Below are positions 159-10,980 of a stretch of DNA of 34,578 bases, one piece after another. The position numbers were made by a program, and so were the translations under genes. Position 1 is the first letter of the stretch; each line of letters opens with the position of its first letter. The notes below the pieces were generated by a model that searched no databases, was not told the DNA's origin, and saw only the letters and a list, made by a program, of their open reading frames with translations. Source of the DNA: Echinicola pacifica DSM 19836 (GTDB lineage Bacteria; Bacteroidota; Bacteroidia; Cytophagales; Cyclobacteriaceae); assembly GCF_000373245.1 (NCBI RefSeq), contig NZ_KB890754.1, positions 21,056-55,633 of the forward strand. The letters are read 5' to 3'.

Positions 159-1392
<1,234 letters not shown>

Positions 1393-1403
1393 AATAATCA
1401 GTA

Positions 1404-4400
1404 TTACCTTGTTTCCCCTATCGAGACCACATCTCCTAAGTGATTTATTCGGACCTTTACTATTCCCTTAAGGCCAGTCAAGCCAGTCCTTTTCCACGTA
1501 ATTCCTTTTAACTTAGCATTTTCCTCTACGCTTGTATCCAAATGATGTCTAAAGAAATAATCTTTTGTCGCAAGCTTCTGTACTCTAAATAAATGTGGGC
1601 TAATAACGCTTTTATTATCTTTACTGAATAGATCGAAATCACTTGGGTTAAAACCATTTCCTAAATCCGGAAAAACAAAATGCTCATTTTGCTTCAAGGA
1701 GAATAAAAATGTCCAGCCTAAGTCCTTGTTATAATTTTTGTCAATTATTTCTAATTTCTGATTTGCTCTAGCTACCGCCTCGAAAAATGAAACTATATTT
1801 TCTTGAAGATTACCCTCCTTATCAATATAAATTGCGACATGATGATTGCTTCCTGTATTTACAAAATCTACAGGGATCTCAAATCCATTTTGATCTAAAA
1901 TTTTATTTCCCAAATGATCCTTTTTAGAATGAAGGCTTTCTGCATTTTTTTTACCCCTAATCCGTACATTCTTAATGCTTATTCCTTTAGCTTTATTTAG
2001 CCAAATTGGATCCTTTTCTAGGTTTGAAAAAGCTTTTTTGCGATCATTATTAAACCTTTCTAGACGTTCCATTAGTATTTGTTTTACTCCTTCATCAATT
2101 ACTTTATCAATATTTAATAAATGGTCTATCTTATTTCTAATAGAATAGCCCTCCAAAAATTGTGTTATCGATATTTTCTCAGGTAGTTTTTCTGTTTTAT
2201 CGGGATTAATGAAGATGGGGTTTTTAGCCAAAGCATTTTTTCCAGTGAAAGCTTTCTTTGGATCATTTCCAAACTCATATAATCTTAATAACAGAAGCTT
2301 TTTGTAATGAGGATTATTAACCATCGAAATTAGTTCTTCATCAAATCTCCCACCTATTTTAACCTCCTTTGTTATTGGGTACTTATATTTTTTATAAATA
2401 CTTTCGTTATGGAGTTGGCCCCTTGGGGTTAATTCGGTTTTTATTAATACCTCCTTAACAGTTTTAATTAAATTTTTATTTCGTGTAACAACTTTGTTTT
2501 TTGCTTTCCTTGAAACTAGCACTGATTCCAAATGAGCTTTTGCCGCCTGTCTGAAATTTGGTATAGGAACATTAAATTGAGTTTTTTTTCTCCCATTTTT
2601 ACTGAGGACCTTATGAGTCTCCTTATTCTCAATCTGGTTTATTAAAATGTGTTTTATATGAGTTTCATCTTTGCGAGCGTTCAAATGATTTAGGTATTGA
2701 ATATGACTGTGTTTAGTGAAGGCTATCGTTAATGCGTCTAAAGCGTGATGCCTATGATCATTTCGTTTATTCCATCCTACAATTCTTTCTTTGAATGTTC
2801 CGTCTTTATTTTCAATTACTTCAGTTAGCCCTATATGATTGTACTTACTAAAATTTAATTCCTGCATTACATTAATTAAATTCCAATCCCTCCTCAATCT
2901 ATCTGTTATATTTCCAGAAGTTGCAACTACTGATCGGGTTATTTCAAAAAGGATAGATTTTGCTTGCTTAGCAATATATTGGCTATCTCTCAAATCTCTT
3001 TCAATAAAACCCTCCCCAATCTGGGAATTAGTTTTTAGAAGTTTCTGATATTTAGCTTTTGAAATGCCTTCCTTATTGTTTTTTTGACCTAAATCAAATA
3101 AGACTTTAATGCGTTCTAAATAGCTATCTAATGCTATTTGACCAAATTCTCCTAAGATATAATCATATGCAGTAAGGTTTCCTTTATCATTATTAATCTT
3201 TCTAAATGTTAAAGTTTTGTTAGAAAAACTATCGTCAAATACTTTAGATTGTGGGATAATATGTTCTATATCTATCTCTTTGGTAAATATTTTGTCACGA
3301 GGAATATAGACATTCGTATAAAGATCCTTAAATCCGGTGCTTTTAAGTTCTTCATATAATTTATATCTTAATATATCATTTCGAGTTGGGTTTTTAATAC
3401 CAAATTCATCTTGAAGAGTGGAAAAAATTGAGTCATGTAAATTTTTGGCATGAGCAATATTTGTGGTCATTTCTTCCCTCTCCTTAGCATTTTTCTTTAA
3501 TTCTCGCGCTAATTCTATTCGTATTTCATCAAAATGAAATTCTGGTGGAAGACCTTGTTTTACAAGGAGGACATTTTCCTGGTCAATTAATGAATTAACC
3601 ACGTTTATCATTTGATTTAGAATTTTCTCTACTACAGGATTGCGTAAACTATTTTTCTTTAATAAATCTAATTTATTTTTTAATGAGCGATTTTGGACCT
3701 CACTTTTTGTAAGTGATGATTTAGAATGCCTATACCCTGCATATTCACACGCCTCTGAGTACTGGTGTTCTTTGATGAATGGATAAATTTTCCGAATGGC
3801 CTTTGAACTTAAGCTTCCGTATTCTCTATCAAGGGGCAGGTTGGTAAGGATCTTTGCATGATGAGGCTGGAATCCATATTTATTACATAGTAGTTTTTTT
3901 AAGTCAATATTATCCTTTCCGAATGTATGTATATCGTCCGCACTATGATTATTGCTGTCATCCTCTGCGGAATAAAGCAGGTGCCATAATTGGTATGAGG
4001 CTTGCTTTTCAAAAGCTTTTCCTTCTAATTCTGCATTAAACTCTAAAATCTGAGAATTTATTTTTAAGGATTCAAAAATTGTCAATATTTTATCCTTTAA
4101 ATCAGATGCTGAAATTGTGAAATCACTTAATTTTACCTCGTCAGAATCAGCCTTGCCGCCAAAGATCTCAATAATGTCATAACCTTCGGATTCAATAATT
4201 TTTAAATAAGCTTCATAAAATAGCTTATTTGTATTATTTCCTTCTATCTGTGTGTAGTTAGCTACTTCCCATTCTGTAGTTTTATATCCTAAATGCTTTA
4301 TTATTTCGGTCGCCTTTAAAGTTCCTTTTATATTTAATTCTGAATAGAGATGCTCTCGGGCAAGTGAATCAAGTATGAAAATATCAGATTCTTCAGTTAG

Positions 4401-5759
4401 AATTTTTTCTTTTGCTACTGATCTTTTTTTACTGCCTTTTTTTCGAATTTTGATATTATGTAAAAGCTGTAAAATTTTGAATTCCTGAAAAAGGGGAGAG
4501 GATCTAGGGATAACTTTTGACCCAATTGTCCTTGTTGAAATTTTTCCTCCTTTTTTAACTGATATTTCTCTATTCTCAAATTCACAAAGACTTATTAATC
4601 CTTTTTGAGATTTTAACTTTCGTTGATAAAAAATAATAATGTCCCTAATTTCCTCCTTTAATTTTCTGGTTAATTCAGGATGATATTTAGCTTGGGTCTC
4701 CCATATTAATTCAAATTCATCAAAATAATCTTGCCTGTAAAAAACTGTATTTTTAAGTTTTGAATTTTTATCTTGCTTTAGGGTGTTGTATAAATATTGG
4801 CCAATAGTAACTTTATTAAAGTATAATTCTTTACTCCTATCTGATATTGCTCCAAGATATCCACTAGATTTTTTCAATTCATTATTAATATCTGTAATCA
4901 CATATGCAGCTTCCTCTTTCTCTAATTTTGAATGAATTCCAATATTTCGCCAATAATATCCTTGATATTTCTTCTTTTCTCTTAAACCAAATGAGATGGT
5001 TTTAGGAGATTTTAACTTTTCGTGGATGTCTTTTATATCTGCGGTGTTAAATCCAAAATTTCTCCAAAAGGCCGCGGATGTTGCTTTTTGGCCTTTGCCC
5101 ATGATTTCTCTATAAAAATTATCAGTAAAAACCTCGGGGTGATATTTTTTTTGAGTATCCCATATACAATCAAATTCCGCTTGTAAATCAGACCGATAAA
5201 ATTCTGGCAAATTTTTTATTCCCTCATTTAATAGCCGAAAAACTAATTGACCAGGATGCAGATTTTCATCATATAATTTTTTTGCTATAACCATACCATC
5301 AATAGAATGACCTTCTTCCTCATTCTTAGCTTTTCGACTGCTTTTATAGCCTCTTTTCTTATTAATAGCCAATAGTACTCTTGCAAGTTGGTTTTTATTT
5401 ATCCTTTCAGAAACAGCAGTTGATCTCAATTTCCATGTCTCAAATGTGGTGTTTTTGCCGGACTCGGCTAAAATTGATTCATTGGTGATTATTCTCTCAC
5501 GAATTAATACTTCAATTAAATTGTTTCTTCGAAGCTGATATCTGTCAAGGTTTCTTCTAGCACTTCGTTTTAATGTTCTATTGGCATTTGTTGTTATTGG
5601 TTTTCCTTTTTCAAAATTGGTTTTTTCGTCTGAAGATAGGGTATTGACTCTGACCCCTATTTTCTCAATTGAGGATTTTTCTTTTTCACTCTCTGCCTCT
5701 TTGATGTATGCCCATCCAATTGATGTAGTTCCTAAATCAAGTCCTAATATTCTTTTCAT
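1404..5759 (-). CDS. cas9: CRISPR-associated endonuclease Cas9, subtype II-C, catalytically intact
   Basis: RNA-guided double-strand DNA endonuclease of 1451 residues, in the long range seen for Bacteroidota II-C Cas9 and longer than the ~1000-1100 of Neisseria-type enzymes. Order: RuvC-I (RILGLDLGTTSIGWA, catalytic D8); Arg-rich bridge helix about 60-88 (ANRTLKRSARRNLDRYQLRR); long alpha-helical recognition lobe; RuvC-II (IRIELAREL, E749); HNH (IDIEHIIPQSKVFDDSFSNK, catalytic H833, then NNDKGN); RuvC-III (DHRHHALDAL, H1005 and D1008); C-terminal PAM-interacting region. All nuclease residues are present, so it should be active. The gene is AT-rich and Lys/Asn/Ile-rich compared with the genes right of 6200, which may indicate acquisition by transfer. 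It is first in the cas9-cas1-cas2 operon and diverges from the tracrRNA gene. PAM cannot be read from sequence. Confidence 0.97.
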   Translation of the reverse strand: MKRILGLDLGTTSIGWAYIKEAESEKEKSSIEKIGVRVNTLSSDEKTNFEKGKPITTNANRTLKRSARRNLDRYQLRRNNLIEVLIRERIITNESILAESGKNTTFETWKLRSTAVSERINKNQLARVLLAINKKRGYKSSRKAKNEEEGHSIDGMVIAKKLYDENLHPGQLVFRLLNEGIKNLPEFYRSDLQAEFDCIWDTQKKYHPEVFTDNFYREIMGKGQKATSAAFWRNFGFNTADIKDIHEKLKSPKTISFGLREKKKYQGYYWRNIGIHSKLEKEEAAYVITDINNELKKSSGYLGAISDRSKELYFNKVTIGQYLYNTLKQDKNSKLKNTVFYRQDYFDEFELIWETQAKYHPELTRKLKEEIRDIIIFYQRKLKSQKGLISLCEFENREISVKKGGKISTRTIGSKVIPRSSPLFQEFKILQLLHNIKIRKKGSKKRSVAKEKILTEESDIFILDSLAREHLYSELNIKGTLKATEIIKHLGYKTTEWEVANYTQIEGNNTNKLFYEAYLKIIESEGYDIIEIFGGKADSDEVKLSDFTISASDLKDKILTIFESLKINSQILEFNAELEGKAFEKQASYQLWHLLYSAEDDSNNHSADDIHTFGKDNIDLKKLLCNKYGFQPHHAKILTNLPLDREYGSLSSKAIRKIYPFIKEHQYSEACEYAGYRHSKSSLTKSEVQNRSLKNKLDLLKKNSLRNPVVEKILNQMINVVNSLIDQENVLLVKQGLPPEFHFDEIRIELARELKKNAKEREEMTTNIAHAKNLHDSIFSTLQDEFGIKNPTRNDILRYKLYEELKSTGFKDLYTNVYIPRDKIFTKEIDIEHIIPQSKVFDDSFSNKTLTFRKINNDKGNLTAYDYILGEFGQIALDSYLERIKVLFDLGQKNNKEGISKAKYQKLLKTNSQIGEGFIERDLRDSQYIAKQAKSILFEITRSVVATSGNITDRLRRDWNLINVMQELNFSKYNHIGLTEVIENKDGTFKERIVGWNKRNDHRHHALDALTIAFTKHSHIQYLNHLNARKDETHIKHILINQIENKETHKVLSKNGRKKTQFNVPIPNFRQAAKAHLESVLVSRKAKNKVVTRNKNLIKTVKEVLIKTELTPRGQLHNESIYKKYKYPITKEVKIGGRFDEELISMVNNPHYKKLLLLRLYEFGNDPKKAFTGKNALAKNPIFINPDKTEKLPEKISITQFLEGYSIRNKIDHLLNIDKVIDEGVKQILMERLERFNNDRKKAFSNLEKDPIWLNKAKGISIKNVRIRGKKNAESLHSKKDHLGNKILDQNGFEIPVDFVNTGSNHHVAIYIDKEGNLQENIVSFFEAVARANQKLEIIDKNYNKDLGWTFLFSLKQNEHFVFPDLGNGFNPSDFDLFSKDNKSVISPHLFRVQKLATKDYFFRHHLDTSVEENAKLKGITWKRTGLTGLKGIVKVRINHLGDVVSIGETR

Positions 5760-6210: not shown

Positions 6211-7941
6211 ATGCGTTATAATCATTCTTCTTCATGGACCTCAGGCCTGGCTTTTTTGCTGGGGGTCTGTGTTCTATTTTCCTGTGCTCCCATGCCGACC
6301 AAGGACTATTCGGAGGGCAAATCTGTGGTGGGCAATCAGGCGATGGTAGTCTCTGCTCATCATGAGGCCAGCCGTGTGGGTGCTGAGGTGCTCAAGGCGG
6401 GTGGCAATGCCATCGATGCGATGGTGGCCGTGCATTTTGCCTTGGCGGTGGTGTATCCTGCTGCGGGAAATCTCGGTGGGGGTGGATTCATGATGTACCG
6501 TCCAGAGGGTGGAGAAGTGGTTTCGCTGGACTTTAGAGAGAAGGCTCCTCTGGCAGCTTATGAGGAGATGTATCAGGATGAAAATGGAGAAATTATCGAT
6601 GGCCTTAGCACTGCCGGGCCGATGGCCTCCGGAGTACCGGGCTCGGTAGATGGTATGATCCGTGCTCATAAGCGTTTTGGCACTATGCCACTTAAGGACC
6701 TGATCGAGCCTGCCTATCAGTTGGCGAAGAGAGGATTTGCGATTACCGCTCAGCAGGCTGATAATTATAATGGCACCAAGCAGCGATTTATAGATAATAA
6801 CCGTGATAGCACAGCTATTCCCTTGGTGAGGCTGGATCGTCTCTGGCAGGAAGGGGATGTGCTAAAGCAAAAAGACCTTGCGGCCACCTTGAAGCGTATT
6901 CAGAAGTTGGGCTGGGAGGGTTTTTACAAAGGTAAAACTGCCGAGCTCCTCGTGGCTGAGATGCAAAGTGGCAATGGCATCATCAGTATGGAGGATATGG
7001 AGAGGTATGAATCCAAGTGGAGAACGCCTGTGTCTGGCAAATATCATGATGTGACGGTGTACAGTATGGGACCGCCCAGCAGTGGGGGAATCGCCTTGAT
7101 ACAGTTACTGAGGATGTCGGAATATTTCCCGCTGGAGTCTTATGGATTTCATAGCCCAGAGACGGTACATGTGATGACCGAGATGGAGCGACGCGTATAT
7201 GCAGACCGTGCAAAGCATCTTGGTGATGAAGATTTTTGGGAAGTGCCTCGGAAGGAGCTTATGGATGAGGATTATCTCGCTGGCAGGGTGAGCGAAATCG
7301 ATCTTGGCGAAGCCACCGACAGCAATGAAGTGGAGGCTATGGAGCTGGCAGGGCAGGAGAGTGAGGAGACGACGCACTATTCCATCGTGGATAAGGATGG
7401 AAATGCCGTCTCGGTCACCACCACTATTAATTCCGGCTATGGCTCTAAGGTCTTTGTGACAGGAGCGGGTTTTTTGATGAATAATGAAATGGATGACTTC
7501 AGCAGTAAGCCTGGAGTACCTAATCTATATGGTCTGTTAGGCGGTAAGGCGAATGCTATTGAGGCGGAAAAAAGAATGCTTAGTGCGATGACTCCCACCA
7601 TTCTGGAGAGAGATGGCAAGTTGCTGATGGTGGTGGGTACACCTGGCGGTAGTACCATCATCACCTCGGTATATCAGACGATCCTCAATGTTCTCGATCA
7701 TAAGATGACGATGACAGAGGCCGTAAGTGCCGGAAGAGTGCATTCGCAGTGGAAACCAGATTTTATTTTCCCTGAGGAGGGAGCCCTTGATTCTGCGGTG
7801 ATAATGGCATTGGAGAAGATGGGGCATGCCATCAAAGTCCGTGGAACCATCGGTAGAGTCGATGCGATCCTGGTGCAGCCTGACGGCAAGCTTGAAGGAG
7901 CTGGCGATCCTCGTGGAGATGATTGGGCCGCAGGATATTGA
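6211..7941 (+). CDS. ggt: Gamma-glutamyltransferase, lipoprotein form
   Basis: Hydrolyses or transfers the gamma-glutamyl group of glutathione and related compounds, outside the cytoplasm. The 576-residue precursor starts with a hydrophobic signal ending in a lipobox (LFSC, C25), so a lipid-anchored periplasmic or surface form is predicted. The N-terminal nucleophile Thr is T387 in EETTHYSIVD, where self-cleavage makes large and small subunits. The PPSSGG motif (S290-S291) and oxyanion glycines G479-G480 (GTPGGS) are present, each four residues below the E. coli numbering (T391, G483-G484). Length is normal for the family. It stands alone, with its own terminator, between the tracrRNA and the repeat array. 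The ATG at 6211 is favoured because it gives a full signal sequence. Confidence 0.95.
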   Translation: MRYNHSSSWTSGLAFLLGVCVLFSCAPMPTKDYSEGKSVVGNQAMVVSAHHEASRVGAEVLKAGGNAIDAMVAVHFALAVVYPAAGNLGGGGFMMYRPEGGEVVSLDFREKAPLAAYEEMYQDENGEIIDGLSTAGPMASGVPGSVDGMIRAHKRFGTMPLKDLIEPAYQLAKRGFAITAQQADNYNGTKQRFIDNNRDSTAIPLVRLDRLWQEGDVLKQKDLAATLKRIQKLGWEGFYKGKTAELLVAEMQSGNGIISMEDMERYESKWRTPVSGKYHDVTVYSMGPPSSGGIALIQLLRMSEYFPLESYGFHSPETVHVMTEMERRVYADRAKHLGDEDFWEVPRKELMDEDYLAGRVSEIDLGEATDSNEVEAMELAGQESEETTHYSIVDKDGNAVSVTTTINSGYGSKVFVTGAGFLMNNEMDDFSSKPGVPNLYGLLGGKANAIEAEKRMLSAMTPTILERDGKLLMVVGTPGGSTIITSVYQTILNVLDHKMTMTEAVSAGRVHSQWKPDFIFPEEGALDSAVIMALEKMGHAIKVRGTIGRVDAILVQPDGKLEGAGDPRGDDWAAGY

Positions 7942-7970
7942 TCTAGAGAGAAGTGCTATATAAATATAAA

Positions 7971-8013
7971 GGCTGGCCAAGGGAATCAAATCCCCTAGCC
8001 AGCCTCTTTTTTT
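7971..8013 (+). terminator. Intrinsic terminator of ggt
   Basis: GGCTGGC (7971-7977) pairs with GCCAGCC (7998-8004); the inner GGGA/TCCC arms extend the hairpin. A T-rich run (8006-8013) follows. It begins 29 bp after the ggt stop codon. Confidence 0.85.
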
Positions 8014-8040
8014 GGACTATTTTTTTCATTATTTGTCGAT

Positions 8041-9348
8041 CACCCCACCCAGCCTCCCCTGAAGGGGAGGAGCAAAAAAGGCAGATTTCAATGTCGAATT
8101 CTATTGGTCTGGTTCACTTTCTTGAATCTTCAATTTCGGGATCTAATTGTCCTTAAGAGAAGAATCAAGAACCCCCTTTAGGGGGCAGGGGGTAGTCGAT
8201 ACGCTGTCAATTTAACTCAGGATCCAAATACAACTTGTAAACTATTTATAGGGCAAGTCAGGGTTTTATTCACCCCACCCCGCCTCCCCTGAAGGGGAGG
8301 AGCAAAAAAGGCAGATTTCAATGTCGAATTCTATTGGTATGGTTCACTTTCTTGAATCTCCAATTTCAGGATCGAATTGTCCTTTAAAGAAAGATCAAGA
8401 CCCCCCTTTAGGGGGCAGGGGGGAGTTGCCACGCTGTCAATCTAAATCAGGATCTAAATACAAACCTGTAAACTAGTTTTAGGGCAAGTCAGGGTTTTAT
8501 TCACCCCACCCAGCCTGCCCTGAAGGGGAGGAGCAAAAGAAGCAGATTTCAATGTCTAATTCTATTGGTTTGCTTCACTTTCTTGATTCTTCAATTTCAG
8601 GATCGAATTGTCCTTAAAATAGGATCAAGAACCCCCTTTAGGGGGCAGGGGGTAGTTGCCACGCTGTCAATCTAACTCAGGATCTAAATACAACTTGTAA
8701 ACTATTTTTAGGACCAGTCAGGGTTTTATTCACCCCACCCAGCCTGCCCTGAAGGGGAGGAGCAAAAAAAGCAAATTTCAATGTCTAATTCTATTGGTCT
8801 GGTTCACGTTCTTGAATCTCCAATTTCGGGATCTAATTGTCCTTTAAAGAAGGATCAAGAACCCCCTTTAGGGGGCAGGGGGTAGTTGCCACGCTGTCAA
8901 TCTAAATCAGGATCTAAATACAACTTGTAAACTATTTTTAGGACCAGTCAGGGTTTTATTCACCCCACCCCGCCTCCCCTGAAGGGGAGGCGCAAAAAAA
9001 GGCAGATTTCAATGTCTAATTCTATTGGTCTGGTTCACGTTCTTGAATCTCCAATTTGAGGATCTAATTGTCCTTTAAAGAAGGATCAAGAACCCCCTTT
9101 AGGGGGCAGGGGGTAGTCGATACGCTGTCAATCTAAATCAGGATCTAAATACAAACTTGTAAACTATTTATAGGACCAGTCAGGGTTTTATTCACCCCAC
9201 CCCGCCTCCCCTAAAGGGGAGGAGCAAAAAAGGCAGATTTCAATGTCGAATTCTATTGGTTTGCTTCACGTTCTTGAATCTCCAATTTCGGGATCTAATT
9301 GTCCTTTAAAGAAAGATCAAGAACCCCCTTTAGGGGGCAGGGGGTAGT
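8041..9348. repeat. Tandem array of six ~230-bp units, each with an inverted pair of REP-like hairpins
   Basis: Units start at 8041, 8271, 8502, 8731, 8961 and 9193 (periods 229-232 bp). Each begins with REP-like hairpin A (CCCCACCC tail, then CCTCCCC-TGAA-GGGGAGG) and, after a ~100-bp core, has hairpin B (CCCCC-TTTA-GGGGG followed by CAGGGGG). B starts at 8171, 8401, 8631, 8861, 9092 and 9323. The reverse complement of A has the same layout as B, hairpin then C and a G-rich tail, so A and B are inverted copies of one element with tails facing outward. A-core-B measures 155-157 bp in all six units. The five intervening spacers (~75 bp) also resemble each other, but none follows unit six. Neighbouring units share variants, for example GGACCAGTC in spacers 3-5. 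No open reading frame is conserved across units. Confidence 0.92.
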
Positions 9349-9351
9349 GGA

Positions 9352-10980
9352 TTAAAGGACGGTGAAGGTCTTGGTTTTTTGGTAGTGATTTCCTTGCGTA
9401 TCAGTATAGCTGAGGACGATTTCATAGGTTCCCGCTAACTCGGAAGTGGTAAAGGACCATTCTTTTTCTCCATTGCCTTCCATAAAGATATTACTTTGCC
9501 AAAGCAAAATATCCCTTAAGTCGGGGGCTTTTACCTGCTCTTCCGCCCCGCTGGGCTCAAAATCCCAGATCACTTCCTGCTGTATGCTTGGGTATTCGAG
9601 ATAGAGGGCATTTTCGGGTAGTGGATATCCTGCAAAATCATTTTGATAGGACTTTAGATCCAGCACCCCCTTGAAGGACTTATTACGAATATAATATTCA
9701 CGATTGGTGATCAGTGCCTGTCGTATATTTTTTGGGTGGAATTTTGCCAGTTGGTCTGAGTCAAACACAGGCATCCCATCGATAAGCATCAGTGGGTTTT
9801 CATCAAAGACGGTTCCCAAAGGTTTATTGATCAATTTGAAATGGGTCTTTCCATGGGATTTTCTTACCATTACCGTAGGGAAATATTCTTTAAAGGTGGT
9901 ACCCATATCCTCAAATCGGTTATAATCATCCAATAGATAACTTAAATCGGCGGTAAAACCGGTCACCAGGCTGTCTTGTGGCAGGGGAAGCGGCGCAAGG
10001 TAATGCCTAGCGATGCTTTGGCCCAATACCCATTGGTCGAGCCAGGCCTGATCTTCCTCGTCTATCTCCAGCTTTGGCAACCAGGAAAGATCGGGTGGAC
10101 TGGCGAAAGGGGACTGGATATGGAAGTCAAAAGCAACAGAATCGCGCTCTGACTGCAAGATCAGGAAGTCATAATGCTTAAATACCCCAAGATCAAAATA
10201 AATCTCCCCCTCGGCATTTGGACGGGAGAGAAATAGCTCCGACTGCTTGCCATGGGCACTCAATAGGTAATAACTTAGGGTGTCCACCGGGCTGCTCGTG
10301 ACCTGGCCTTGGATTATATGTCCACGGATTTCAGGGATCATTTCACTGGAAGATGCTGGCTCACTGTTTAGTTTTTCCTGAAACACCAGCCTGCTGCTGT
10401 ATGGATTTTTCAGGCTGATGGATAGGTTGACCTTGCCTTGGCTTGGCGCCTTTATCTTTAGTTTGGCTGTTTGAGCACGGCCCATGGAGCTGCTAGCCAT
10501 ATCGATTCCCAGTTCGCCCGCACTCAGCTGGAGGGTATTTCCGGAAGAGGCAGAAGTGCCTCCTTGTCTGGTCGGAGGGATTTCCGGATTGATGATAGTT
10601 ATCAGTTCCTGATAGTTGGCCTTAGGATTGGTAGATTTAGCTCCCAGTCGGCTATAGACTCTTAGCAGATAGTGGTCACTTGGGGTCTCATCGGTGATTT
10701 GAATATAGGCAGAGGCCCGGCCATTTTCCAGAGGTATGATCGCTTCAGCATATCGTATTCCATCTCGGCTGAGCAGTTCGGCATAGACAAAGTTCAGGGG
10801 GCTTGCCTGCCCTTGAAGCTGCAGGGTCACTTGCACGGGTACTTTTTCACCCGCCACAGCGATGGTTTTTGCCAGATGAACGCTGATGGATTCCTCGAAG
10901 GCGGTATTCTGAGCTCCAGCTGAAGCTTGGTATATCGCAAGGAATAATATTGCTAATAGTATGGTTTTGAATTTTTTCAT
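9352..10980 (-). CDS. Secreted MG2-like protein with a TonB plug-like segment, function unknown
   Basis: 542 residues with a signal peptide (MKKFKTILLAILFLAIYQASAGA, predicted cut before QNT). Residues about 25-135 look like a macroglobulin MG2-type beta domain (AKTIAVAGEKVPVQVTLQL, then NGRASAYIQITD). Residues about 360-460 contain NPLMLIDGMPVFDSDQL...IRQALITNREYYIRNKSFKGVLDL (D401 in LIDG), which resembles the plug of TonB-dependent receptors, but there is no beta-barrel. It is the last gene of a four-gene operon, overlapping the DUF4249 gene by 4 nt (ATGA). Its stop codon lies only 3 bp from the repeat array. Such proteins recur beside DUF4249/TonB receptor pairs in Bacteroidota, suggesting an envelope-associated helper; the role is inference. 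Confidence 0.75.
   Translation of the reverse strand: MKKFKTILLAILFLAIYQASAGAQNTAFEESISVHLAKTIAVAGEKVPVQVTLQLQGQASPLNFVYAELLSRDGIRYAEAIIPLENGRASAYIQITDETPSDHYLLRVYSRLGAKSTNPKANYQELITIINPEIPPTRQGGTSASSGNTLQLSAGELGIDMASSSMGRAQTAKLKIKAPSQGKVNLSISLKNPYSSRLVFQEKLNSEPASSSEMIPEIRGHIIQGQVTSSPVDTLSYYLLSAHGKQSELFLSRPNAEGEIYFDLGVFKHYDFLILQSERDSVAFDFHIQSPFASPPDLSWLPKLEIDEEDQAWLDQWVLGQSIARHYLAPLPLPQDSLVTGFTADLSYLLDDYNRFEDMGTTFKEYFPTVMVRKSHGKTHFKLINKPLGTVFDENPLMLIDGMPVFDSDQLAKFHPKNIRQALITNREYYIRNKSFKGVLDLKSYQNDFAGYPLPENALYLEYPSIQQEVIWDFEPSGAEEQVKAPDLRDILLWQSNIFMEGNGEKEWSFTTSELAGTYEIVLSYTDTQGNHYQKTKTFTVL

Follow-up and report, generated by a model that had tools for sequence, protein, structure and literature searches.

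The window (the whole stretch of 34,578 nucleotides analysed here) contains, in the convergent intergenic region between a gamma-glutamyltranspeptidase (GGT) gene and a minus-strand gene without a Pfam match, a single tandem array for which TRF reports a period of 230/231, 5.7 copies, 92% matches and a score of 2178 (Table 1). Between the end of the array and the convergent gene's stop codon there are 3 bases. On the minus strand at 159-5759, the window also carries genes that, by eye, we take to be Cas2-, Cas1- and Cas9-like. The first-pass annotation gave the array a span of 8041-9348, of which the array itself and its end stand, whereas the start has to be placed at 8040. The same annotation described six A-core-B units of 155-157 bp, in which A and B are hairpins, separated by five alike spacers of about 75 bp, and this anatomy is confirmed by TRF, the repeat search and alignment. 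The A block is found six times (95-98% identity to the reference copy) and the B block six times (88-95%), with a spacing of 229-232; the six doublets align with a mean column identity of 95%, and the five spacers (73-75 bp) are 94% alike. Both ends of the array are formed by a doublet, never by a spacer.

Table 1. Features of the array and its surroundings (window coordinates)
Feature	Position	Strand	Basis or remark
Left flanking gene, gamma-glutamyltranspeptidase (GGT)	6211..7941	+	PF01019, E 1.2e-158
Terminator-like stem-loop in the gap between left gene and array	7968..8007		Scan, minus strand only; plus-strand T run by eye
Whole array, six A-core-B doublets and five spacers	8040..9348		TRF and repeat search
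Doublet 1 (A 8041-8070, B 8170-8196)	8041..8197	+	Repeat search, doublet alignment
Spacer 1	8198..8270	+	Spacer alignment
Doublet 2 (A 8271-8300, B 8400-8426)	8271..8426	+	Repeat search, doublet alignment
Spacer 2	8427..8501	+	Spacer alignment
Doublet 3 (A 8502-8531, stem substitution; B 8630-8656)	8502..8656	+	Repeat search, doublet alignment
Spacer 3	8657..8730	+	Spacer alignment
Doublet 4 (A 8731-8760, stem substitution as in doublet 3; B 8860-8886)	8731..8886	+	Repeat search, doublet alignment
Spacer 4	8887..8960	+	Spacer alignment
Doublet 5 (A 8961-8990, B 9091-9117)	8961..9117	+	Repeat search, doublet alignment
Spacer 5	9118..9192	+	Spacer alignment
Doublet 6 (A 9193-9222, B 9322-9348)	9193..9348	+	Repeat search, doublet alignment
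Right flanking gene, convergent	9352..10980	-	No Pfam match

Several common explanations for such a repeat can be discarded. Start-codon ORFs located wholly inside the array do not exceed 51 aa, and one 67-aa ORF overlaps its left end; thus, the units lack a long frame, coding repeats are ruled out, and the continuous coding frame that, according to the first-pass annotation, would have spoken against its reading is absent. A CRISPR-like array is ruled out as well, given that the spacers are 94% alike instead of unique. The search for known RNA families yields two matches, both below the threshold, and a 462-bp portion of the array has no match in phage and plasmid collections.

The A element consists of the tail CACCCCACCCAG and the stem CCTCCCC/GGGGAGG, and the B element of the stem CCCCC/GGGGG and the tail CAGGGGGTAGT. 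The two are mutually inverted, with the C/G-rich tails facing outward and the core between them, exactly as the annotation had it. The tail of each element approximately repeats the adjoining stem arm, so that one arm has two possible pairing partners. In the predicted DNA folds (copies from doublet 1), B alone pairs preferentially with its tail, and A with the near arm; the predicted fold of the doublet, from which parts of both tails were omitted, contains A and B as separate hairpins and an internal core stem adjoining B. One pair of the A stem is broken by a substitution common to doublets 3 and 4, so that this stem is not strictly kept.

With a size of 27-30 nt including the tail and an intergenic location, A and B resemble REPs, which are palindromes of 20-40 bp, and they form inverted pairs as REPINs and BIMEs do (six pairs in the window and five measured on contig C13 of the same genome). 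The GTAG/GTGG or CGTC tag is absent from the 5' foot of the stem, which instead carries C-rich tails (CACCCCACCCAG, CTACCCCCTG). On the opposite strand, the G-rich tail does contain GTGG (in A) and GTAG (in B), at a position 3' of the stem, but GTAG is lost in doublet 2, and the corresponding CTA precedes the tail in only 9 of 98 related elements. A high dispersed copy number typical of REPs is not observed in the genome; the hairpins accordingly fall outside the REPs of the REPIN/BIME definition. A resident RAYT is lacking, with zero Y1_Tnp matches in the genome, and a profile built from seven proteins of Y1 subclass 1.2 has zero matches in it too, so that the array has no subclass-1.2 gene beside or inside it. 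Because the tag, the dispersed copies and the resident RAYT are all missing, the element is REPIN-like and is not a canonical REP or REPIN.

A second full copy of the 231-bp unit is not found in 59 genomes, this one included; only the hairpins recur, which is the part of the expectation of further copies in the genome and its relatives that holds. Allowing up to 3 mismatches, B-type hairpins occupy 13 places in the genome, namely six in the window, two elsewhere on the same contig (C16), which flank a run of N, and five on C13, where the places resolve into two arrays with a period of 172. A-type hairpins with at most 1 mismatch occur in the window and on C13 only; at a tolerance of 3 mismatches, the count over the two strands, with the array places, rises to 51, vs 30 for a control pattern. 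Close copies are thus confined to arrays or paired places and do not constitute a dispersed family. Between the C13 arrays there is a partial copy of the neighboring hydrolase gene (L024:5862-5990 and 8731-8872), with the join, by eye, at a short CCTCCCCAG match.

The cores measure 105, 105, 106 and 105 bp in the window (n=4; two doublets with the stem substitution were left out and differ by at most 1 base in the alignment) and 104, 106, 105, 105 and 105 bp on C13 (n=5). The best comparison of a window core with a C13 core scores 16, where the 95% point of shuffles is 18. Hence, across the window and C13 doublets, the core length of about 105 bp is kept and the core sequence is not; the notion of a defined unit, based originally on the near-constant A-core-B length, is borne out by cores of 104-106 bp in all nine measured doublets. 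A helical-turn rule for core length, based on gaps of 94 and 105 bp, was rejected in view of further gap lengths: the gap of 94 is seen six times, but two of the six lack the tails-outward form, six other doublets from the phylum have gaps of 85-99 (by hand), and those of the both-tailed doublets on viral contigs are 52-90.

Beyond this genome, the motif C4, 2-7 bases, C4TNNAG4 is present in 19 of the 59 genomes (every one of the 11 genus genomes, and 8 of the 48 others), compared with 7 matches in all for the reversed control pattern; counts in the ten genus relatives range from 1 to 78, overlapping matches included. Of 395 genomes from the phylum, 6 contain hairpin pairs that have a gap of 82-112 and an outer tail on at least one side; these pairs are commonest in the genome under study. 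Tails-outward pairs with a gap of 94 are found, among the named records, in a Pedobacter, a Mucilaginibacter, a Ferruginibacter and a Paludibacter. On viral contigs, 18 stretches match the hairpin-pair pattern, with 6 pairs that are both-tailed. In the set of 98 unique Bacteroidota-type elements, a purine precedes the tail in 92 and an A follows the hairpin in 92, so that these flanking bases define the hairpin family better than the palindrome alone. The first-pass description of a Bacteroidota counterpart of REP doublets is therefore upheld with regard to the inverted doublets, their tandem amplification and the relatives in the genome, genus and phylum, and is not supported with regard to a canonical REP/RAYT system, given the lack of tag and Y1 gene. 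The window's gene content, together with that description, is the basis for placing it in Bacteroidota.

Two lines of search were abandoned. A genome-wide scan for bare hairpin pairs lacked specificity: Alphaproteobacteria with other hairpins make up many of its 80 named rows. The occurrence of a short-core doublet at several places in relatives, initially taken as proof of movement, was withdrawn: this doublet is part of longer shared blocks, and the surroundings of two of its four places are alike (97% over 4.3 kb), so that it shows no independent movement. In genomes G008 and G001 (L191, L192 and L193), stretches of tens of kb contain recurring hairpins, both C-tailed and other, and frames nearby in L193 look by eye like glycosyltransferase and sulfatase genes. 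C-tailed tandem arrays are present in G005 and G001 (L196:3048-3926, L197:2303-3041 and L227:3996-4698, with periods of 394, 371 and 285); among the Y1 matches listed for these two genomes, none falls within these stretches. In the open-licence literature, we found no published description of this hairpin family or of arrays at subclass-1.2 genes; searching for four hairpin sequences turned up three papers, all on other subjects.

The counterpart sites in the genus bear on the origin of the array. A GGT ortholog is present in 10 of the 11 genus genomes, the studied one included, and in 5 of the 9 relatives the right gene is its convergent neighbor, with gaps between the matches of 93, 136, 177, 201 and 375 bp; in the remaining 4, the contig ends or the neighbor is not found within the fetched flank. 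Here, the same gap is 1410 bp, or 101 bp after subtraction of the 1309-bp array. A pattern search of the five counterpart gaps finds no C-tailed hairpin. Because these gaps are short and devoid of such hairpins, the array is probably a lineage-specific gain, with loss in the relatives as the alternative.

All ten genus relatives have Y1 matches (2-19 per genome), and a side finding concerns a different kind of hairpin array. All 29 subclass-1.2 loci collected here (9 from the genus and 20 from the family) contain the Y---Q--HH signature that defines this subclass in the cited part of PMC6006769. Tandem arrays with a period of 100-500 lie within 3 kb of the gene at 7 of the 9 genus loci, which were picked during exploration, and at 8 of the 20 family loci, which were taken one per genome as the strongest subclass-1.2 profile matches on contigs long enough for a control, i.e., at 15 of 29 together (L193, L195, L198, L205, L206, L208, L210, L260, L261, L263-L266, L273 and L274). 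The units at these loci have periods of 123-438, and the genes are located beside or inside the arrays. No arrays are found at 20 displaced controls or at 15 genus Y1 loci without the signature (14 and L221). The Fisher p is 0.003 for the family loci vs the controls and 0.0006 for all 29 vs the 14 signature-less loci, which come from six genus genomes, include near-identical copies and hence are not independent. In a third, mixed sample (28 Y1 loci from 14 genomes, flanks of at most 1.5 kb), arrays occur at 2 of 16 loci with the signature, one of the two being the L193 gene again, vs 2 of 12 without it, so that the association is not borne out as a general rule. The gene is flanked on either side by direct repeats of 16 nt or more at 8 of 9 loci from the genus, 3 of 20 from the family, 1 of 14 other Y1 loci and 0 of 20 controls; inverted repeats around the family genes (4/20 vs 0/20, p 0.11) were rejected as a feature. 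Two further arrangements were seen. In G007 (L205:3928-5279), a Y1 frame of 158 aa is present in two identical copies, separated by 878 bp, amid repeated hairpins, and at L333:539-1011 a tandem repeat with a 247-bp period lies at a distance of about 0.5 kb from a signature-less Y1 match.

The hairpins at subclass-1.2 genes differ in sequence from A and B and mostly lack the C tail. An exception in overall plan is L209 (G004), where the Y1 gene itself is the core between perfectly inverted 21-nt hairpins with C/G-rich tails outward, as in A-core-B. A Y1 or RAYT gene flanked by the same hairpin as in the window, which the first-pass annotation proposed to look for, was not encountered: the genome itself has none, and a C-tailed hairpin directly flanks the Y1 gene at 0 of the 28 loci read, among 56 Y1 matches listed in 14 genomes that were chosen for holding C-tailed hairpins. 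At two of the 28 (L322 and L325), such a hairpin lies 1.1-1.5 kb from the gene. What does exist in a genus relative is the comparable hairpin pair of L209.

We favor, with confidence about evenly balanced, the explanation that a non-autonomous REPIN-like element was amplified in tandem here, its unit being an inverted C-tailed doublet with a core of about 105 bp. In the most likely course of events, the convergent intergenic region of this lineage came to contain two doublets, one on each side of about 75 bp; the doublet-spacer segment would then have been multiplied to six doublets and five spacers by recombination or slippage between the two, which form direct repeats. The doublet would have been inserted as a unit, the amplification might have proceeded by homologous exchange between doublets, and the mover could have been a Y1/HUH-type single-strand transposase, which is not found in the genome. 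The anatomy of the array, the copies elsewhere, the equal length of two unrelated cores and the hairpin-free sites in five relatives are direct observations. The presence of doublets at both array ends fits exchange between doublets, and the pairwise doublet identities (90-96% for all pairs) carry little information on the amplification route. Against this explanation stand the lack of a Y1 match in the genome and of directly flanking C-tailed hairpins at the Y1 genes of the 28 loci, as well as the fact that the hairpin copies in the genome are not a dispersed family.

The main rival regards the C-tailed hairpin as an element of gene 3' ends (a terminator, an mRNA stabilizer or a Rho-loading site) and the array as a multiplied 3'-end module, in which case facing pairs would arise wherever two genes converge; we regard this as possible, if rather unlikely. 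In its favor, 13 of the 98 elements start 0-6 nt past the stop of a same-strand frame, compared with 0 at 7-13 nt and 5 at 14-20 nt (frames were taken from stop to stop with at least 120 codons, and some elements come from related loci, so that not all are independent), although most of the 98 have no such stop within 20 nt. The tails at L084, L102 and L342 start at most 1 nt from the stops of convergent frames, with a strong terminator-like stem in the core, and in the window B6, the last B hairpin of the array, is 3 bases away from the convergent gene's stop codon. The orientation of neighboring frames speaks against this rival: the 19 classified doublets, among them the window's and one from C13, comprise 5 convergent, 10 codirectional, 1 divergent and 3 undecided cases. 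On the minus strand, a T-rich stretch follows the six B hairpins, which are scored as terminator-like (10 sites vs 3.0 expected from shuffles), but what follows A is an A run instead of a T run, and a terminator-like stem-loop is already present between the left gene and the array.

A plain minisatellite, i.e., local duplication of hairpin-rich intergenic DNA without mobility or function, where the hairpins merely provoke replication slippage, appears improbable. Duplication at such sequences has also occurred on C13, as seen by eye in the partial hydrolase-gene copy with its short CCTCCCCAG match, but this scenario has to contend with the occurrence of both hairpins on another contig around cores of equal length and unrelated sequence, and with doublets of like design in other Bacteroidota.

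The subclass-1.2 genes invite two further readings, and the link between the window array and their array system is suggestive only. It seems quite doubtful that Bacteroidota possess a REP-like system of their own, with two-partner-arm hairpins, a core of set length and tandem arrangement, handled by array-dwelling Y1 proteins of subclass 1.2, the transposase of which the window array would have outlived. Least probable of all, and very unlikely, is that a subclass-1.2 system lost its gene here, possibly by exchange between the repeats flanking it, and left the array as an orphan: the arrays at genus (7 of 9) and family (8 of 20) loci vs 0 of 20 controls, the direct repeats on both sides of the gene at 8 of 9 genus loci and the L209 gene as the core of an inverted hairpin pair are in its favor, but the third sample is without the association (2/16 vs 2/12), L209 alone resembles the window design while the other subclass-1.2 hairpins differ in sequence and mostly lack the C tail, and the genome, with no Y1 match, retains no recognizable remnant.

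A tagless REPIN-like unit in Bacteroidota, in a genome without a detectable Y1 gene and with a core constant in length but not in sequence, raises the question whether such units require RAYTs at all or are served by another Y1 class. Subclass 1.2 generally lacks the typical terminal IS200 structures, as described in the cited part of PMC6006769; the frequent location of its genes at tandem hairpin arrays in this family offers a candidate substrate for a subclass published without typical termini.

Among the known systems, REP doublets as treated in the cited parts of the papers compared here are mainly proteobacterial, with GTAG tags and a resident RAYT. The Y1 subclass-1.2 arrays identified in this work belong to the same family and genus as the window array and, like it, consist of tandem hairpin-containing units (123-438 bp), but differ from it in hairpin sequence and mostly lack the C tail. 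The atypical REP-like structures associated with Y1 subclass 2.6 (RAYT group 5) in Bacteroidetes are, by their description in the cited part of PMC6006769, palindromes without the GT[AG]G tag, as in the array; the comparison is with that description, and the genome of the array has no Y1 match. Enterobacterial BIME-2 shares with the array the tandem repetition and the two oppositely oriented palindromes but has a different sequence, and enterobacterial REPs carry the GTAG tag (PMC2817692, in part). A close parallel is provided by the REPIN clusters of Pseudomonas fluorescens SBW25, which, in the cited part of PMC3116915, are intergenic inverted hairpin doublets repeated in tandem together with flanking DNA, the tandem copies being nearly identical, flanks included. 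There, the doublet spacing peaks at 71 and 110 bp and the tandem spacing at 184 bp, and the largest cluster comprises four REPINs and a REP in little over 700 bp, compared with six doublets in 1.3 kb here; SBW25 contains roughly a thousand extragenic copies, and clusters lie next to its RAYT genes, whereas the genome of the array has neither. The array works in the manner of a REPIN or BIME-2 cluster, with exchange between its doublets as the most likely route of amplification.
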